Positions 34,143-62,468 of a stretch of 64,000 nucleotides of DNA are shown here, one piece after another (position 1 is the first letter of the stretch; every line of letters starts with the position of its first letter). A model generated the notes under the pieces. That model did no database searches, had not been told where the DNA came from, and was given only the letters and a program-made list of their open reading frames with translations. Both the position numbers and the translations under genes were made by a program. The stretch is from assembly GCA_012518125.1 (NCBI GenBank), contig JAAYTF010000072.1, positions 1 to 64,000 of the forward strand. Direction: 5' to 3'. This DNA comes from Bacilli bacterium. Lineage in GTDB: Bacteria; Bacillota; Bacilli; Bacillales; Amphibacillaceae.

Positions 34143-34186
34143 GGTTGACCATATTTATATTATGTAAACAAGAAGGGGTGGAAACG

Positions 34187-37710: not shown

Positions 37711-37752
<42 letters not shown>

Positions 37753-45034: not shown

Positions 45035-45262
45035 AAAAATTTAGGTTTTGGAACCTAAGTAATTTATATTCTAATCGAAAAAATGGATTAAGTCTAGCCA
45101 ATTTTAATTAATTGCCGAAAAAATATATGGTATATTTTGCAAGACATTTATAACCAATTAGGCAAAAAATAATGTTTCAGCTTCATTTGCAAGCGCTTGA
45201 AACATGAAATTCGAAAAATATTTGTTTTTATTGTTCCTAAAATTGTTGAAAATTGGCATGAA

Positions 45263-45323
45263 AAATGACGTTAGTGCCATTAAGGAAAATATATGGTTAC
45301 GATCAACAACACTAACGTCATTT
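45263..45323 (-). repeat. 14-bp perfect inverted repeat with 33-nt loop between yngE and liv operon
   Basis: AAATGACGTTAGTG...CACTAACGTCATTT. Confidence 0.75.
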
Positions 45324-45341
45324 CAAATGGTTGGCAAATGT

Positions 45342-46874
45342 TTACACTGGGTACACTCCGTGTTTGCGTTCGGTAAAAGTGACGTTTTTCGAATCGTACA
45401 TTTCAAAACGGCTAACCAACTCGACGCGCAATTTGTCCGGTTCGACGATATGGTCGACGACCATTTCCGAAGCGAGGCGGTAAATGTCAATATCCGCTTT
45501 ATATTCCGCCTGTTTTTCTTCTATGAACTTTCGTCGTTCTTCCCCTTCAAGCTCGGCGATTTTGTTCGCATAAACGGCGTTGACCGCCGCTTCAGGACCC
45601 ATGACGGCAATTTGCGCGGTTGGAAGTGCAAGCACCGCATCCGGTTCAAATGCCGGGCCGGCCATGGCATACAACCCCGCTCCGTATGCTTTCCGGACGA
45701 CGACGGAAATTTTCGGAACCGTCGCCTCGCTCATCATCGACAACATTTTCGCACCGTGACGGATAATTCCCATCCTTTCCACTTTCGTGCCGATCATAAA
45801 TCCAGGCACGTCCATCAAGAAGAGCAACGGAATGTTGAACGCATCGCAAAGCTGGATGAATTTGGCCGCCTTATCCGCAGAATCCGGGAACAAGACGCCG
45901 CCTTTTTGACGCGGTTGGTTCGCGATAATGCCGACGACGCGTCCATCGAGGCGTGCAAGCCCCGTGATGATTTCTGGAGCGAACAGTTTTTTGATTTCGC
46001 ACCAGCTTCCTTCATCAATGATGCGGTCGATCAATTCATACATGTCAAACGGCGCGTTTTGGTTTACCGGGATGATGTCTTTAAGCGATGTTTCAAATTG
46101 TTTCGGTTCTTTGCCTTCGATTTTTTCCGGTTTATGGCGGAAGTTCGGTGGGAAATACGTCAAATAACGGCGTGCAAAGGCGATCGCCTCTTCTTCCGAC
46201 TGGACTAAGACGTCGCCGCAGCCCGAGACGGTGCAATGCATCCGTGCGCCACCCATCTCTTCAAGTGTCACTTTTTCACCGATGACCATTTCGGCCATAC
46301 GCGGCGAACCTAAATACATCGAGGCATTGCCTTCCACCATGACGACGATGTCGCAAAACGCCGGGATATACGCACCGCCTGCCGCTGATGGTCCAAACAA
46401 CAACGTAATTTGCGGCACCCTTCCGGACATTTTGATTTGGTTGTGGAAAATTCGACCTGCACCACGGCGTCCCGGGAACATTTCGATTTGGTCGGTGATC
46501 CGGGCGCCGGCGGAGTCGACCAAATAGATCATTGGAATTTCCAAATTCATCGCCGTCTCTTGAATGCGCAAAATCTTCTCAACTGTCCGTTTTCCCCATG
46601 AACCGGCTTTGACGGTCGAGTCGTTTGCCATCACGGCAACTTTTTGCCCATGAATTTTGCCGATTCCCGTAACAACGCCGTCGGACGGCAAATGCTCGTC
46701 CGCTTCACAGTTGGCAAAAAATGCATCTTCAATTTCCAAACCATCGTCCAACAGCAATTTTAATCGATCGCGTACGAAAAGTTTACCTTTTTCCGCATTA
46801 CTTTTATGGTACTTTTCGTGTCCACCTTTTTCAATCTCTTTGATTCGTTTATGCAGTTCTTCGAGATAAGGCAC
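45342..46874 (-). CDS. yngE: Acyl-CoA carboxylase carboxyltransferase subunit (YngE, methylcrotonyl/propionyl-CoA type)
   Basis: YLVDSAGARITDQIEMFPGRRGAGRIFHNQ; SAAGGAYIPAFCDIVVMVEG. Confidence 0.93.
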   Translation of the reverse strand: MPYLEELHKRIKEIEKGGHEKYHKSNAEKGKLFVRDRLKLLLDDGLEIEDAFFANCEADEHLPSDGVVTGIGKIHGQKVAVMANDSTVKAGSWGKRTVEKILRIQETAMNLEIPMIYLVDSAGARITDQIEMFPGRRGAGRIFHNQIKMSGRVPQITLLFGPSAAGGAYIPAFCDIVVMVEGNASMYLGSPRMAEMVIGEKVTLEEMGGARMHCTVSGCGDVLVQSEEEAIAFARRYLTYFPPNFRHKPEKIEGKEPKQFETSLKDIIPVNQNAPFDMYELIDRIIDEGSWCEIKKLFAPEIITGLARLDGRVVGIIANQPRQKGGVLFPDSADKAAKFIQLCDAFNIPLLFLMDVPGFMIGTKVERMGIIRHGAKMLSMMSEATVPKISVVVRKAYGAGLYAMAGPAFEPDAVLALPTAQIAVMGPEAAVNAVYANKIAELEGEERRKFIEEKQAEYKADIDIYRLASEMVVDHIVEPDKLRVELVSRFEMYDSKNVTFTERKHGVYPV

Positions 46875-46888
46875 TGTTGATCCCCCTT

Positions 46889-47674
46889 TTATTTTCCGCG
46901 ATAGACTGGTTTGCGCTTTTCTTTAAAAGCTTTTAACCCTTCGAGACGGTCTTCCGTATACAACGTTTCGCGATAAGCCAAATGCTCTATCTCCAAACCG
47001 GTCATCAAATCGACTTCTATGCCTTGATTGATCGCAGCTTTTGCTTGGCGCAATGCAATCGGCCCATTTTGCGTAATTTCTTTCGCCAAATTGACCGCTC
47101 GATCGAGAAGTTCATCTTTTGGTACGACTTCTTCGACGATTCCCAACTCCTTGGCTTCTTCTGCACTGATGCGTTTTGCCGTATAAATCAATCGTTTCGC
47201 CTGCCCGATGCCGATGAGCCTTGGCAAACGCTGCGTTCCACCTGCGCCGGGAATGATCGCCAACGACGTTTCCGTCAATCCTAATTGAACGTGTTCGGCG
47301 GCGATGCGCAAATCACAGGCGAGCGCGAGCTCCAGTCCGCCTCCAAAGGCGACCCCGTTCAACGCTGCTATCACCGGCATGTCCATCCGTTCCACTTTTA
47401 GGATCGTTTCACCGATCCGTCTTACCGCCTCAATTGTTTGGCGATGGTTCATGCCACGGCGTTCTTTCAAATCGGCACCGGCGCAAAACGCTTTTTCCCC
47501 TTCACCGGTGATAATCGTACAAAAGACCGTTTCATCGCTATTGACTTGAGCGATCGCTCCCGCTAAATCAAGTAGCAGTTGTTTGCTCATCGCATTATAC
47601 GCTTCCGGACGATTCAACGTGATGATCGCTATATGTTCATGAGTCGATGTATCCAATTTTACAAGACTAGACAT
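46889..47674 (-). CDS. yngF: Enoyl-CoA hydratase/isomerase (YngF, probable methylglutaconyl-CoA hydratase)
   Basis: GEKAFCAGADLKERRGM; LGLTETSLAIIPGAGGTQRLPRLIG. Confidence 0.9.
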   Translation of the reverse strand: MSSLVKLDTSTHEHIAIITLNRPEAYNAMSKQLLLDLAGAIAQVNSDETVFCTIITGEGEKAFCAGADLKERRGMNHRQTIEAVRRIGETILKVERMDMPVIAALNGVAFGGGLELALACDLRIAAEHVQLGLTETSLAIIPGAGGTQRLPRLIGIGQAKRLIYTAKRISAEEAKELGIVEEVVPKDELLDRAVNLAKEITQNGPIALRQAKAAINQGIEVDLMTGLEIEHLAYRETLYTEDRLEGLKAFKEKRKPVYRGK

Positions 47675-47699
47675 CGTTCGTTCTCTCCTTATCTTTTGG

Positions 47700-47912
47700 C
47701 TATTCGATGACAGCGATGACGTCCCCTTCGTTTACGAAGTCCCCTTCGTTCACCTTGATTTCTTTTACGGTGCCGGATGCTTCAGCCGCAATCGGTATTT
47801 CCATTTTCATCGATTCCAAAATGACGACATCTTCTCCCGCCGACACTTCGTCACCGACTTGGACGTTAATTTTCCATACGTTTCCAGCCATCGATGCTTT
47901 CACTTCAGACAT
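47700..47912 (-). CDS. yngHB: Single-domain biotin/lipoyl carrier protein (YngHB)
   Basis: ILESMKMEIPI biotinylation motif; MSEVKASMAGNVWKINVQVGDEV. Confidence 0.93.
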   Translation of the reverse strand: MSEVKASMAGNVWKINVQVGDEVSAGEDVVILESMKMEIPIAAEASGTVKEIKVNEGDFVNEGDVIAVIE

Positions 47913-47941
47913 GTTCGGTTTCCTCCTCATCATGATGTGAT

Positions 47942-49294
47942 TTATTTTGTTTTTAGCGGCAAATAATGTTTTTGGACATAATCCGTCGTCGTGTTGCCGC
48001 GTTTGAAATTTTCTTCATTCACGACGGTTTTGAGCATCGGGATGTTCGTTTTGATGCCCGTTATTTCATATTCGTCCAACGCTTTATCCAACAACTGAAT
48101 CGCTTCCGCGCGGTCTTTTCCGGTCACGATCAGCTTGCCGATCATCGGATCGTAAAACGGTGTCACTTGCGAACCTTGTTTGACAGATGATTCAATGCGG
48201 ACATGTTCCCCGCTTGGTTCTTTGTATGTTTCGATTGTCCCAGGCGATGGGAAAAACGTAACCGGATCTTCCGCATAAATCCGCGCTTCGATCGAATGCC
48301 CATTCCTTTTCACGTCTTCTTGGGAAAGCGGAAGTTTTTTTCCTTCAGCAACATCTAGCTGCAATTTCACGATGTCCAATCCGGTTATCTGCTCCGTAAT
48401 CGCATGTTCCACTTGAATCCGTGTGTTCATCTCCAAGAAGTAAAATTGCTCATGTTCATCGACCAAGTACTCAATGGTGCCCGCGCTAAAATAGCCGATT
48501 TCTTTTGCCGCTTTTACGGAAGCCTCACCCATTTTCTTGCGCGTTTCCTCTGAGATGAACGGTGACGGCGCTTCTTCCAACACTTTTTGGTTTCGCCGCT
48601 GCACGGAACATTCCCTTTCAAAAAGATGGATGGCATTTCCATGTTTGTCCGCAATGACTTGCACTTCGATGTGGCGCGCATTTTCCACCAATTTCTCGAT
48701 GAACATGGCACCGTTTCCGAAAAATTGTTCCGCCCGTTTTGAATTGCTTTCAAACGTCCTTTGCAATTCATCATCAGAGCGGACGACTTGCATGCCGATG
48801 CCGCCGCCTCCGGCCGCCGCTTTCAACATGATCGGATAGCCGATTTCGTTGGCCAATTTGATCGCTTCATCGACGTTGTCGATCGCTTCGTCCGTGCCCG
48901 GAATGATCGGGACACCTGCTCTTTTCATCATGTTGCGTGCAGCGATTTTATCGCCCATCTGTTCCATTACCTCGGCTGACGGCCCGATGAAAATGATGCC
49001 ATTTTCCTCACACTGTCTCGCAAATCCGCCATTTTCGCTCAAAAAACCGTAGCCGGGATGAATGGCGTCGACGTTTGCCATTTTGGCGATTTCGATGATT
49101 TTGTCCGCTCTCAAGTAGCTCTCGTTCACCCGCGGCGGTCCGATCAAAAAACTTTCATCCGCTTGTTTCACGTAAGGGGAGTCAGCATCTGCCTCGGAAT
49201 AAATCGCAACGGTCTGAATCCCATTTTCCTTGCACGTCCGGATAATTCGTGATGCGATTTCACCTCGGTTGGCAATCAACACTTTTTTGATCAT
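47942..49294 (-). CDS. yngH: Acyl-CoA biotin carboxylase (YngH)
   Basis: KKVLIANRGEIASRIIRTCKE; KAAAGGGGIGMQ; FLEMNTRIQVEHAITE. Confidence 0.94.
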   Translation of the reverse strand: MIKKVLIANRGEIASRIIRTCKENGIQTVAIYSEADADSPYVKQADESFLIGPPRVNESYLRADKIIEIAKMANVDAIHPGYGFLSENGGFARQCEENGIIFIGPSAEVMEQMGDKIAARNMMKRAGVPIIPGTDEAIDNVDEAIKLANEIGYPIMLKAAAGGGGIGMQVVRSDDELQRTFESNSKRAEQFFGNGAMFIEKLVENARHIEVQVIADKHGNAIHLFERECSVQRRNQKVLEEAPSPFISEETRKKMGEASVKAAKEIGYFSAGTIEYLVDEHEQFYFLEMNTRIQVEHAITEQITGLDIVKLQLDVAEGKKLPLSQEDVKRNGHSIEARIYAEDPVTFFPSPGTIETYKEPSGEHVRIESSVKQGSQVTPFYDPMIGKLIVTGKDRAEAIQLLDKALDEYEITGIKTNIPMLKTVVNEENFKRGNTTTDYVQKHYLPLKTK

Positions 49295-49379
49295 ACAACC
49301 CCTCATTTCCTCAAAAATTCATTTCATGGATGAAACCAGCTTAATCGCTTTCAACCCATACAAAGCGTTTACATTAAAT

Positions 49380-50519
49380 TTAATCTAAATTTCGGGAAAT
49401 GACAATACGTTGAATTTCGGATGTTCCTTCGCCAATGACGAGCAATTTCGCATCACGCATGAGACGTTCAACGCCGTACTCGCGCATATATCCGTATCCT
49501 CCGTGTATTTGTACGGCTCGCTCAGCATTGCGCACCGCCGTTTCCGATGCAAAAAGCTTTGCCATCGCCGCTTCTTTTGTGAACGGTTTGCCTTGGTCTT
49601 TGAGCCATGCGGCTTTCAACACCATATTGCGGGCGAGTTCCACTTCCATCGCCATGTCCGCAAGCATGAATTGAATCGCTTGGAATGAACGGATTGTTTT
49701 TCCGAATTGTTTTCTTTCATTTGCATACGCCAACGCTTTGTCCAAAGCGTCTTGCGCGATGCCGACGCTCAATGCGCCAATGGAAATGCGCCCGCCGTCC
49801 AACGTTTTCAAGAATTGTTTGAATCCTGCTTTCGGGTCGCCCAACAAGTTCTCTTTCGGTACGCGGACATTGTCCAACACGATTTGTGTCGTGTTCGAGC
49901 CGCGGACCCCCATTTTGTCGTGTATCTCTGTGATCGTCAAACCTTCTGCATCGGTAGGCACGATGATGGCCGAAATGATGTTTTTGCCGCGGTCATCTTT
50001 GCCGGTCACCGCAGTGACGATCAGCGTTTTTGCATAGCTCGCATTTGTGATGAACACTTTTTCTCCGTTGATGACGTATTCGTCGCCGTCAAGGACAGCC
50101 GTCGTCTCCGTGCCGCCCGCATCCGATCCCGCATTTGGCTCTGTCAGCCCGAATGCGCCGAGCGCTTCCCCTTTGGCAAGCGGAACCAAATACTTTTCCT
50201 TCTGCTCTTCCGTGCCGAACATATAAATAGGTGACGCCCCTAATGACACGGCTGCAGCGTAGCTTAATCCGGTGCTGCCGCACGCTCTTCCGACTTCTTC
50301 GACTGCAAGCGCGTAAGAAATCGTGTCCCCTCCCGAACCACCGTACTCTTCCGGGAACGGTATTCCGAGAAAACCGAGTTTCCCCATTTCTTTAAAAATG
50401 TCTTCCGGGAATTTCCCTTCTTTATCGATTTCCATCGCTCGTGGGCGGATGACATCGTTGGCAAATTCACGAGCCATGTTTTGGGTCATCTTTTGCTCTT
50501 CGGTAAGTTCAAAATTCAT
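49380..50519 (-). CDS. yngJ: Acyl-CoA dehydrogenase (YngJ, isovaleryl-CoA type)
   Basis: MNFELTEEQKMTQNMAREFAND; FGLTEPNAGSDAGGTETTAV; IHGGYGYMREYGVERLMRDAK. Confidence 0.92.
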   Translation of the reverse strand: MNFELTEEQKMTQNMAREFANDVIRPRAMEIDKEGKFPEDIFKEMGKLGFLGIPFPEEYGGSGGDTISYALAVEEVGRACGSTGLSYAAAVSLGASPIYMFGTEEQKEKYLVPLAKGEALGAFGLTEPNAGSDAGGTETTAVLDGDEYVINGEKVFITNASYAKTLIVTAVTGKDDRGKNIISAIIVPTDAEGLTITEIHDKMGVRGSNTTQIVLDNVRVPKENLLGDPKAGFKQFLKTLDGGRISIGALSVGIAQDALDKALAYANERKQFGKTIRSFQAIQFMLADMAMEVELARNMVLKAAWLKDQGKPFTKEAAMAKLFASETAVRNAERAVQIHGGYGYMREYGVERLMRDAKLLVIGEGTSEIQRIVISRNLD

Positions 50520-50542
50520 CTTACATTCCTCCTTTACCAAAT

Positions 50543-50561
50543 AGACCGACCATTCGGTTTG
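50543..50561. promoter_or_regulatory. TetR operator copy A upstream of yngJ
   Basis: AGACCGACCATTCGGTTTG; palindromic and 16/19 identical to the site upstream of the TetR gene. Confidence 0.7.
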
Positions 50562-50577
50562 TAAGCGCTTTATAATA

Positions 50578-50606
50578 ATCATATGTACAATCCTAGCAAA
50601 TGTCAA
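50578..50606 (-). promoter_or_regulatory. Promoter of yng operon
   Basis: Minus strand TTGACA-17-TATGAT. Confidence 0.7.
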
Positions 50607-50607
50607 G

Positions 50608-51252
50608 CTATTTTTTCGTTTTCGTAAAATAAAACGGTTCGATGAGGATCGATTCATACGTATCTTTGTCCAAATATTCAGCTTTTAACACGGCGTGCAA
50701 AATGAAATCGGTAAAGATGTCCGCGATTTGTGATATCGTTTTTTCCCCGTCGCGGTTGTACCATTTGTATATCCAATTGACCATCCCCAAAATCGCCATG
50801 ACGACGATGTCGACTTCTAACTCTTGACGGAATTCCCCGCGCTCTTTCCCCGCTTTGACGACGTCGTAAATAATTTGTCTAAATTCATCACGTTTTTTGC
50901 GGATGATTTCATCGTACTTCGGATGCAAATATTTCGCTTCTTGATAAAATACCGTCAAATGAGGTTTATACACGTGGAAAACGCCGACGAAACTTTTGAT
51001 GATCGCCTGCAATTGTTCGAGAGGACTTTCGTAAGAGCGGGCTGCCAATTTTGCGTTTTCGATTGCATATGTAATGAAAATATCGTGAATGACATATAAC
51101 AGCTCATCTTTGGATGAAAAATGATGGTAAAAACCGCCTTTGGAAGTGCCGGCTTCCGTGACGATTTCATTGATCGAAACACCGTGATAACCTTTTTCTT
51201 CAAACAGCAAGAGCGCCGTTTGAATGATTTTGCTGCGCAAATCCGTTTTCAT
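50608..51252 (-). CDS. TetR/AcrR family regulator of acyl-CoA catabolism
   Basis: HGVSINEIVTEAGTSKGGFYHHFSSKDELLY HTH. Confidence 0.88.
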   Translation of the reverse strand: MKTDLRSKIIQTALLLFEEKGYHGVSINEIVTEAGTSKGGFYHHFSSKDELLYVIHDIFITYAIENAKLAARSYESPLEQLQAIIKSFVGVFHVYKPHLTVFYQEAKYLHPKYDEIIRKKRDEFRQIIYDVVKAGKERGEFRQELEVDIVVMAILGMVNWIYKWYNRDGEKTISQIADIFTDFILHAVLKAEYLDKDTYESILIEPFYFTKTKK

Positions 51253-51327
51253 CTACCCCCTTAATGAAGCGTGATCTCGTTAATATGTATTAAGATAGCA
51301 TAATTTCATCGCCGTTACAATAAAAAT

Positions 51328-51347
51328 CAGACCAAATAGTCGGTCTG
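51328..51347. promoter_or_regulatory. TetR operator copy B upstream of the TetR gene
   Basis: CAGACCAAATAGTCGGTCTG imperfect palindrome. Confidence 0.7.
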
Positions 51348-51353
51348 TCAAAG

Positions 51354-51390
51354 AAAAAAGGAACAAAACCTTAATCGGAGGTTTTGTTCC
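51354..51390 (-). terminator. Terminator after acyl-CoA synthetase
   Basis: GGAACAAAACCTtaatcggAGGTTTTGTTCC; minus-strand T-tract. Confidence 0.85.
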
Positions 51391-51407
51391 AATTTATGAT
51401 GAACGTA

Positions 51408-53036
51408 TTAATGTTTTCTCAACAAGTAACGTTGAATTTTTCCACTCGGCGTTTTTGGCAGTTGATCGATGAATTCAACGATGCGCGGGTATTCGTGAGC
51501 GGATAAGTTCTTCTTGACGAATTCGCTCAATTCTTTTGCCAAATCGTCGCTCGGTTCATATCCTGGACGTAAAATGACGTACGCTTTGACGAGCTCGCCG
51601 CGTTGTTCATCCGGTACACCGACGACAGCCGTCTCCGCCACCGCTTCGTGTTCCATGAGCGAGCTTTCCACTTCGAACGGCCCGATGCGGTAACCGGAGC
51701 TGATGATGATGTCATCTTCACGGCCTGAGAAGAAGAACATCCAGTCTTCGTCACGGCTCGCCGCGTCTCTCGTGAAATAATAACGTTTATCTTTTGAAAA
51801 GACTTCTTTCGTCTTTTCAGGTTCATTGTAATATCCACGGTACCAGAACAACGGTGAATTTTCGATGTCGATCGCCAATTCCCCTTCTTCGCCTGGTCCC
51901 AATTCGTTGCCGTTATCGTCCAAGATGACTGCACGGTATCCCGGCATTGCCGGACCCATTGATCCTGGTTTCACTTCATGGCGCATATCATCTTTGTGCA
52001 AGTTGACGACGCACATTCCCAATTCGGTCTGACCGTAATGGTCGTAAATTGGCTGACCGAACACCTTTTCAGCCCAGTTGCTTACGTCTGGGTTCAACGG
52101 TTCGCCGGCACTTGACAATGTTTTTAAGTTGATTTCGTCGATGAAATCTGGCGTGCCATGTACGCGCATCGTACGGTAAACGGTAGGTGCACCGGCAAAG
52201 TTCGTCACTTTATAGTCTCTTAACATTCTGTAAGTCCATTCGACGTCAAATTTGCCCTGGTTGACGACGAATGTTTGGCCCAAAAGGAGCGGTCCAATGA
52301 CGCCGTAGTAAAGTCCGTAAGCCCAACCTGGGTCGGCAATGTTCCAGAAAATATCTTCCGGTTTAACATCGAGGCCGAATCTCATGTACGCCTCGAACGC
52401 TGAAAGGGCGAATACTGGTACGTCGACCCCTTTCGGATTTCCCGTCGTACCGGACGTATAAATCAAAATCATTTGATCGTCTTTTGTGACGCGCACGGCA
52501 TCTTCGAAAGGCTCTGCCTGTTCAAGCGCTTCATAATAATCGATGTCGTCAACGTCAGCCAACTGTTTTGCATCTTTTGTGATCACGGTGATGTTGGATG
52601 CAGCTTCTTCACCCATGTCGTTAAACGCTTCGGTCACTTTCACGCGGTTTTGCGCATCCGTCAAAATGACCGATGCCCCGCTATGTTCAACACGGTATGA
52701 AATCGCTTTTTTCTCAAACGCGGTAAACAACGGTACATAAACAGCACCGAGACGCCAAATCGCCAATGCGGAAATGAATGTTTCCGGGCCTTTTGGCAAT
52801 AACACTGCCACTCGGCTGCCTTTTTCGACACCTTGGTTTTTGAGCACAGTTGCAAATTTTTTCGACAATTCGTTCAATTCGCCATACGTGTACGTACGTT
52901 TTTCCCCTTCGTCACTTTCAAAGTAAAAGGCGATTTTTTCTGGATCGTGGCGTTCGACAAGTACGTTTGCCAAAGACAAATTGTCGTAATCGTGTTGCTT
53001 GATCAGCTGCTCTACTTGATCAGAAAACTTCCCCAT
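51408..53036 (-). CDS. Acetyl/acyl-CoA synthetase (AMP-binding)
   Basis: ILIYTSGTTGNPKGVDVP; GQTELGMCVVNLH; GREDDIIISSGYRIGPFEVES. Confidence 0.92.
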   Translation of the reverse strand: MGKFSDQVEQLIKQHDYDNLSLANVLVERHDPEKIAFYFESDEGEKRTYTYGELNELSKKFATVLKNQGVEKGSRVAVLLPKGPETFISALAIWRLGAVYVPLFTAFEKKAISYRVEHSGASVILTDAQNRVKVTEAFNDMGEEAASNITVITKDAKQLADVDDIDYYEALEQAEPFEDAVRVTKDDQMILIYTSGTTGNPKGVDVPVFALSAFEAYMRFGLDVKPEDIFWNIADPGWAYGLYYGVIGPLLLGQTFVVNQGKFDVEWTYRMLRDYKVTNFAGAPTVYRTMRVHGTPDFIDEINLKTLSSAGEPLNPDVSNWAEKVFGQPIYDHYGQTELGMCVVNLHKDDMRHEVKPGSMGPAMPGYRAVILDDNGNELGPGEEGELAIDIENSPLFWYRGYYNEPEKTKEVFSKDKRYYFTRDAASRDEDWMFFFSGREDDIIISSGYRIGPFEVESSLMEHEAVAETAVVGVPDEQRGELVKAYVILRPGYEPSDDLAKELSEFVKKNLSAHEYPRIVEFIDQLPKTPSGKIQRYLLRKH

Positions 53037-57125: not shown

Positions 57126-57593
57126 TTATTCCTCTTTTAAGTAACGGTATTTGCTAGCATAATAAATGATCGGTTCACCGTCATTTACATGTATATCGAT
57201 GACTTTCCCGATGAAAATGATATGGTCGCCCGCCTCAAATTGGTCGACGACTTCACAAGATACATTCGCAAGTGCATCTTTTATGACCGGAACACCCGAT
57301 TGATCGATAAATTCGAAAGCATGATCGGGCAAGTCAATTTGATCGGCAAAATATAATGATAAATCTTTCTGGCTATCGCGCAACATGCTTACGCCAAAAG
57401 GTTTTCCTATTTCCAATTTATGGTACATGCTCGCGTGATCGCCGATGGAGACGGCAAGCAACATCGGCTTGAGCGAAACGGACATGAACGCGTTTACGGT
57501 CATCCCGATCGGTTTAGCGTCGTCGTACATCGAAACGACAGTGATCCCTGTTGCGAACCTCCCCATCGCGTCACGAAACAAACGCTCATTCAT
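57126..57593 (-). CDS. Flavin reductase family protein (HpaC-like)
   Basis: FRDAMGRFATGITVVSMYDDAKPIGMTVNAFMSVSLKPMLLAVSI. Confidence 0.9.
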   Translation of the reverse strand: MNERLFRDAMGRFATGITVVSMYDDAKPIGMTVNAFMSVSLKPMLLAVSIGDHASMYHKLEIGKPFGVSMLRDSQKDLSLYFADQIDLPDHAFEFIDQSGVPVIKDALANVSCEVVDQFEAGDHIIFIGKVIDIHVNDGEPIIYYASKYRYLKEE

Positions 57594-57671: not shown

Positions 57672-57699
57672 AGTTTACATAATATATATATCGTTAACT
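57672..57699 (-). other. Second dif-like site, XerD arm and core conserved, XerC arm diverged
   Basis: Minus strand AGTTAACGATATATATATTATGTAAACT; last 18 nt match the dif consensus exactly. Confidence 0.6.
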
Positions 57700-58009: not shown

Positions 58010-60466
58010 CTATTCGTTCTCTTGGAATGGGACTGTATACGGTTCATCTTTGAAGGCATAAATGACATTTCCGTCCTCATCTTCTTCCAATATGAACGAG
58101 CCGTTCGTGTTTCGTTCACTTTCCGGCAATTGCAATGGTACGATTTCGAACACTTTTTCCTTATCTGTTACGACAAAAACGTTTTCTTCAACTTCATTTG
58201 AAAGCTGCTCGAAATAGATGAGTCGGTGCGGTTTCGTTTTTAACGTTCTTAACAACTGTACACCGCGGCGTGCGCGTTGGGACGGTTCAAGCACTCGTTT
58301 CGGCATTCGTTTCACCGCTCCGCGCTGCGTGACGACGAACAGATCAAACGCATCTCCACGATCGGCAAACCCGTTGATGACATGATCATCTTCTTTCAAC
58401 TGGATGCCGATGACACCTTGGGCGCGGATGCCCACCGGAGAAATTTGCCCCGCTTCAAAACAGATGCCGTATCCGTTATGCGTGGCGATGTAAAGGGGTG
58501 AATTTTCTCCCGTTATGCTGACATTCACCACTTCATCGCCTTGTTTTAAATTGATGGCGATCAAACTGTTTTTCGTGCGCGTCGTCTCATATTCTTTCAA
58601 AGCCGTCTTTTTCACGAGCCCATGCTTCGTGAAAAAGACGACAAATCGTTCTTCTTCGAATCGTTTGACCGGTATGGATGCGATGATTCTTTCATCGTTG
58701 TCCAGTTCAACGATATTGGAAATGTGGACGCCCGTATCGCGCCACCGGATGTCTGGCAACTCGTAAACAGGGATCATGACATATTTGCCCATATTCGTAA
58801 ATAATAAGATGTTGTCCGTCGTATCCATTTCGAATAACGAGATGAGATGGTCCGACTTTTTCAGCGTCAGGTCGCTTTTTTTCGAAGCGTTATAAGATCG
58901 GAGGCTCGTCCGCTTCACGTAACCGTCTTTCGTCGCGGATACGACGACGGTCTCTTGCGGAACCGTCACTTCGATGTTGATTTTTATTTCTTCGATTTCT
59001 TCTTCGATAGTCGTACGTCGTTTGCTCGGATATTGTTTTTTCATCTTGCGCAAATCCGCTTTGATTTTATTGAGCAACGCTTTTTCACTCGTCAAGATCG
59101 CTTCATACGTTTTGATTCTTTCTTCCAATTCTTTTTTCTCTTCTTTCAATTGTGTCACATCGGTATTCGTCAAACGATACAATTGTAAATTTAAAATCGC
59201 ATCTGCCTGCATGTCGGTGAATGAAAAAGCCGCCATGATGTTTTCTTTCGCTTCTTTTCGGTTTTTTGACTTGCGGATGATGGCGATCAATTCGTCCAGA
59301 ACGGATACCGCCTTGATCAGGCCGTCGACGATATGGGCGCGGTCTTTTGCTTTATTGAGATCGTACGTCGTTTGTCTAGTCACCACTTCTTTTTGGTGTT
59401 TGATGTATGCATCGATGATTTCAGGGAGGCTCAACAGTTTCGGTCTGCGGTCTTGAATGGCGACCATATTGTAATTGTACGTCACTTGCAAGTCCGTGTT
59501 TTTATATAAATATTGCAAAATGCCTTCGCTGTCGGCATCTTTCTTCAAATCGATGACGATGCGCAAACCTTCGCGGTCCGTTTCGTCACGGACTTCTTGG
59601 ATGCCATCGACTTTCCGCTCGATATGTAATTCATCGATTTTCCGGACGAGATTCGCTTTATTGACATCGAACGGTATTTCGTGAATGATGATTTGTTCGC
59701 GTCCGCCGCGCACTTTTTTGATTTCCGTTTTGCCCCGGATGATGATGCGTCCTTTTCCCGTTTTGAACGCTTCGATGATGCCGTCTTTCCCTTGGACGAT
59801 GCCGCCGGTAGGGAAATCGGGGCCTTGGATTTTCGTCATTAAATCTTCGACCGTGGCATTCGGTTTGTCAATTTTTAAAATGATTGCATCGATCACTTCT
59901 TGCAAATTGTGCGGTGGAATGTTCGTCGCATAACCGGCTGAAATTCCCGTCGAACCGTTGATCAACAAATTCGGCAGCTTCGCTGGAAAAACGACCGGTT
60001 CTTCTGTCGTGTCATCAAAGTTCGGAATGAAGTCGACCGTGTCTTTATCGATGTCGACCAACAATTCCGATGCAATTTTGGAGAGCCGTGCTTCCGTATA
60101 ACGCATCGCAGCGGGCGGATCGCCGTCGATACTGCCGTTATTGCCGTGCATTTCAACAAGTTCATAGCGCATCTTCCAATCTTGGCTGAGCCGAACCATC
60201 GCGTCATAGACGGACGTATCGCCGTGCGGATGATAATTGCCGATGACGGTGCCGACCGTTTTAGCGGATTTGCGGAAATTGTTTTCATGCGTATTTTTGT
60301 CGATGAACATCGCGTATAAAATGCGCCGTTGCACAGGTTTTAAACCATCCCGGACATCGGGAAGCGCCCGGTCTTGAATGATATATTTACTGTAGCGCCC
60401 GAACCTGTCGCCGATCACCCGTTCTAAAGGCAATTCCAAAACTTTGTTCGCTGATTGCATGGACAT
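58010..60466 (-). CDS. parC: DNA topoisomerase IV subunit A
   Basis: [46 protein letters not shown]. Confidence 0.97.
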
Positions 60467-60479
60467 ACCCCTTTACATA

Positions 60480-62468
<1,989 letters not shown>

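Follow-up and report, generated by a model that had tools for sequence, protein, structure and literature searches.

Known sites at and around the terminus

The closest described relatives of the locus considered here are the XDS of the Bacillus subtilis terminus (Karaboja et al., 2021), known here through citing papers, in which XerD at its binding sites in the terminus is reported to unload SMC (PMC10945525, PMC8357415 and PMC12322038, citing Karaboja 2021). As those papers present them, XDS have a XerD-type sequence, occur in several copies around dif, are specific to the terminus and do not need a XerC arm. The dif site itself (CodV/RipX, XerCD) is a 28-bp sequence with a XerC and a XerD arm around a 6-bp core, and is found once per chromosome at the skew switch; in B. 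subtilis, RipX (XerD) can bind both dif halves (review PMC5357621). Two further systems offer partial likenesses. In the attachment sites of Xer-exploiting mobile elements (IMEX), and in difGGI, one dif half is conserved and the other has diverged, and an integrated element is flanked by a direct repeat of a dif half. The matS sites of Escherichia coli (MukBEF unloading sites, with MatP) likewise lie scattered through the terminus and act on an SMC complex, but they are palindromic 13-mers recognized by an unrelated protein, so that the locus described below would work like them without being a member of that group.

The site at 57.7 kb and its neighborhood

The window, that is, the whole 64,000-nucleotide stretch of DNA that was analyzed, contains the following features.

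34,143-34,170, plus strand: left-hand XDS-like site (35.1 bits), 3.6 kb left of dif and in dif's orientation, between msrAB and a DUF6501 gene
37,714-37,741, plus strand: true dif, ACTTCCGATAA TATATA TTATGTAAACT
57,126-57,593, minus strand: flavin reductase-like gene (PF01613, E=3.8e-36)
57,672-57,699, minus strand: right-hand XDS-like site, AGTTAACGATA TATATA TTATGTAAACT, 19.96 kb right of dif and inverted relative to it, i.e., pointing at dif
57,672-57,682, minus strand: XerD arm of the right-hand site, identical to dif's XerD arm at 11/11 positions
57,689-57,699, minus strand: left arm AGTTAACGATA of the right-hand site, which fits the consensus AGTTnACnATA and not the dif XerC arm ACTTCCKATAA
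57,716-57,934, minus strand: biotin/lipoyl carrier gene (PF00364)
58,010-60,466, minus strand: parC, with its stop at 58,010
60,480-62,453, minus strand: parE

The GC skew flips at 37.7 kb, and the site there is therefore the real terminus dif; gene direction flips at the same place, and the XerC arm equals the family consensus. The presence of an intact dif implies XerCD in the host.

An earlier, sequence-only reading of the right-hand site, as AGTTAACGATA-TATATA-TTATGTAAACT on the minus strand with dif's core and its complete XerD arm, was correct, as was its claim of a 21-nt identity with the dif at 37.7 kb, for which zero occurrences are expected in shuffles: the common stretch is ATATATATTATGTAAACTAAA, and the core and flank are identical as well as the XerD arm. 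The 57.7-kb site shares dif's 28-bp layout, but it differs from dif in that its left arm is not of the XerC type (4/11 positions match, and a XerC arm is absent), in that it is inverted and not single-copy, and in that a better dif lies 20 kb away, at 37,714, where the skew switches. It is intergenic, lying 16 bp after the biotin/lipoyl carrier gene, 78 bp before the start of the flavin reductase-like gene and 311 bp after parC; the distance of about 310 bp downstream of parC given previously was accurate, except that the carrier gene intervenes. A check for promoters and terminators at the site returned two weak promoter-like matches, near chance, and no terminator, and a simple promoter or terminator reading was dropped on these grounds.

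Sequences of this kind are rare. With up to 3 mismatches allowed, a 19-nt version is present three times in the window (34153+, 37724+ and 57671-) versus 0 times in 100 shuffles, and the whole 2.24-Mb genome has four places that match an 18-mer at no more than 2 mismatches, three of them inside the window. Scanning the same genome with the full motif gave exactly two matches, at 57.7 kb and 34,143, both at most 20 kb from dif, and none for the control, and the prospect of many equally good matches genome-wide, which the sequence-only reading had named as a reason to abandon its claim, did not materialize. With a position weight matrix whose training left out the window's genome, the 57.7-kb site scores 35.3 bits, the 34,143 site 35.1 bits and dif 13.4 bits, and no value of 12 bits or more was found in Markov-resampled sequence. 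The 34,143-34,170 site (plus strand), a third site in the window that was absent from the earlier reading, was grouped by its neighbor genes with sites in 15 other genomes.

A two-arm motif distinct from dif

When only the right half was used to select sites, their left halves nevertheless converged on AGTTnACnATAAT, with about 10 bits over 16 positions (0-15), whereas dif sites converge on ACTTCCKATAA; the complete two-arm motif is AGTTnACnATAAT-TATTATGTAAACTA. The 57.7-kb site fits all nine specified positions of AGTTnACnATA, and its left-arm score of 10.9 is reached by a fraction of only 1e-4 of random 16-mers. The XerC arm had earlier been called diverged; it does differ from the XerC arm of dif, yet it is no random sequence, being a good match to the second arm AGTTnACnATAAT. 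This left arm recurs in Bacillus and other families of the class, whose sites were not in the left-arm training set, 33/49 of them scoring at least 4 versus 0.45% of random 16-mers.

On the opposite strand, the outer part of the left arm, GTnAACT, is a mirror image of the XerD arm about the center of dif, with one extra base between ATTAT and GTnAAC relative to a perfect inverted XerD arm; the left arm looks like an inverted XerD half-site. In a more distant genome (L289, G197:C18), each arm is an almost perfect inverted copy of the other, giving GTTTACATAATAATATTATGTAAAC. L289 and L282-L285, from distant families in which no dif was identified, also contain clustered XerD half-sites whose second arm is a nearly perfect inversion, at a spacing that differs slightly.

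Use of the exact half-site alone as a marker was dropped: outside the family, copies without the left arm were convergent on dif in 8/16 cases, which equals chance, and some are integration scars. Because half-sites lacking the left arm are random in this way and include such scars, the two-arm motif serves better as a marker.

Distribution around dif and conserved loci

A dif site was located in 61/70 genomes of the family. The exact half-site TATTATGTAAACWA has 44 extra copies on the dif contigs of these 70 genomes, 35 of which lie within 60 kb of dif, while a reversed-motif control in the same 70 genomes gave 34 matches, 1 within 60 kb of dif.

The locus group to which the 57.7-kb site belongs is a junction of dynA and the flavin reductase gene together with yngE (accD-like) or parC, and it is kept in three genomes of the same genus and in many family members (G001, G002, G005, G021, G064, G068, G078 and others). 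Among the congeneric genomes, the site lies upstream of the flavin reductase gene in G001 and G005 and between dynA and accD in G002; in G021 it is found between parC and the flavin reductase gene, as in the window, and in B. spizizenii TU-B-10 it is next to the yngE homologue, at a distance of 3.5 kb to the right of dif. Other sites predicted in B. spizizenii are at spoIIIE-ymfC, yobS and yocR-yocS, with gene names assigned from the translations. A yng-type acyl-CoA operon occupies 45,204-53,036 of the window, between dif and dynA, and in relatives lies between the XDS and parC; the difference is a local rearrangement in which the site stayed with the flavin reductase gene.

Orientation toward dif

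In dif's frame, sites on the left share dif's orientation and sites on the right are inverted, so that exact half-sites within 60 kb point at dif in 33/35 cases in the family, 11/12 in other families and 6/6 in Bacillus. Many of the 35 share a locus and are not independent events, and the count was repeated by distinct locus. Sites with the left arm point at dif in 85/90 cases, corresponding to 26/31 distinct loci and to 11/11 loci within 60 kb, these locus counts being approximate because grouping by neighbor genes with single linkage can merge unrelated loci. The divergent half-sites within 60 kb in the family (in G060 and G078) and a divergent site in G005 all lack the left arm.

This pattern might also suggest that the motif is a transcription-linked element, either a regulator site or a UTR element, whose orientation follows transcription and not dif. 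The gene behind the site is indeed co-oriented with it in 77/85 cases, and 4/4 divergent sites with neighbor data sit behind a co-oriented gene; near the terminus, genes point at dif too. Yet among sites whose rear gene is directed away from dif, 8/12 still point toward it. Moreover, the right arm and flank are those of dif's XerD arm, clustering of the sites in this genome is confined to the surroundings of dif, and the flanking genes are functionally unrelated. The transcription-linked reading is therefore unlikely, although polarity is partly confounded with transcription direction and the two influences are not cleanly separated.

A tentative and rather doubtful extension is that XDS are polar: of their two XerD arms, the strong one would have to face dif, SMC coming from the origin would as a result be unloaded from one side only, and this arrangement would be kept across Bacilli. 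Such an orientation rule for SMC unloading would be comparable to convergent CTCF sites for cohesin. Literature searches on XDS orientation found no paper on it.

A predicted XerD-binding and SMC-unloading site

The 57.7-kb site has the sequence of dif's XerD arm, belongs to a set concentrated at the terminus and is independent of a XerC arm, and nothing that contradicts its membership among the XDS, as they appear in the citing papers, was found. Judged by its sequence and within what those papers relate, the 57.7-kb object would belong to this known kind, and it is very probably one of a small set of such sites flanking dif, with predicted XerD binding and terminus-specific unloading of Smc-ScpAB. 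In the proposed mechanism, which assumes XerD and SMC in the host, XerD would bind the site without XerC, probably as two protomers, one on the strong right arm and one on the weaker, inverted left arm, and the resulting XerD-XerD site would unload incoming Smc-ScpAB before the terminus is passed. With the strong arm facing dif, a complex coming from the origin would reach the weak arm first.

What appeared to be an odd copy of dif thereby joins a map of candidate SMC-unloading sites, which in Bacilli are predictable from sequence. With the extended motif, candidate XDS can be told from dif and from mobile-element scars, and the orientation toward dif makes directional SMC unloading directly testable. 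Relative to XDS as the citing papers portray them, possible novelties are the extended motif, its deep conservation and the rule of orientation.

Alternatives derived from dif

The sequence-only reading had suggested that the site may be a relic: an inversion across the terminus would have displaced an ancestral dif, whose XerC arm then decayed. The exact XerD arm and core in inverted orientation would be expected of such a relic, and the accompanying statement on B. subtilis, that dif lies a few kb downstream of parC, holds in B. spizizenii (parC ends at 2041101, dif at 2045793). However, the left arm is kept across genomes as AGTTnACnATAAT, in line with the XDS-like sites, and no decayed ACTTCCKATAA is seen, a second such site exists at 34,143, and relatives and Bacillus have equivalent sites in addition to an intact dif. 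The synteny comparison proposed at the time thus found conservation, the equivalent locus carrying the site alongside an intact dif, and the relic reading, already largely refuted, is highly improbable.

Equally improbable is the proposal that the site is the attachment half-site of a Xer-exploiting mobile element. Such elements do occur in the genus, as in G005, where dif and a direct copy of its right half bracket a 6.6-kb element, but that half-site is oriented like dif, its flanks are duplicated past the arm and the XDS left arm is missing (-9.9 bits), whereas the 57.7-kb site is inverted and shares only three flank bases with dif. Unlike IMEX and difGGI sites, it adjoins no integrated element, its divergent arm is conserved between species, and it sits at a conserved locus among core chromosomal genes. 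The earlier phrase "XerD-recruiting integration site for a mobile element" is accordingly split: XerD recruitment, as predicted here, is very probably right, and the element is missing.

Finally, an active partner of dif that inverts the intervening 20 kb is very unlikely because the XerC arm is absent, leaving no normal XerC/XerD pair even though the central region and the XerD arm are identical to those of dif and inverted relative to them, and because frequent inversion would scramble the site orientation that is fixed on both sides of dif across genera.

Elements and extra sites related to dif in other genomes

The G005 segment (L064:9960-16640, contig G005:C12), in the window's genus, is bounded by dif on one side and, on the other, by a direct repeat of the right half of dif with its flank, and encodes a XerC/D-like tyrosine recombinase, a Vat streptogramin acetyltransferase, a Vgb streptogramin lyase and a Vga-type ABC-F protein; it is an IMEX-like streptogramin-resistance island at dif. 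In L080 (G078:C42:171113-174521), 3.4 kb separate dif from a half-site in the same orientation that lacks the XDS left arm, possibly marking another small dif-integrated element. In addition, near-complete extra dif-like sites are found on other contigs (G023:C27:31766, G021:C2:35532, G024:C131:37984 and several contigs of G106), perhaps representing dif-bearing plasmids or elements.
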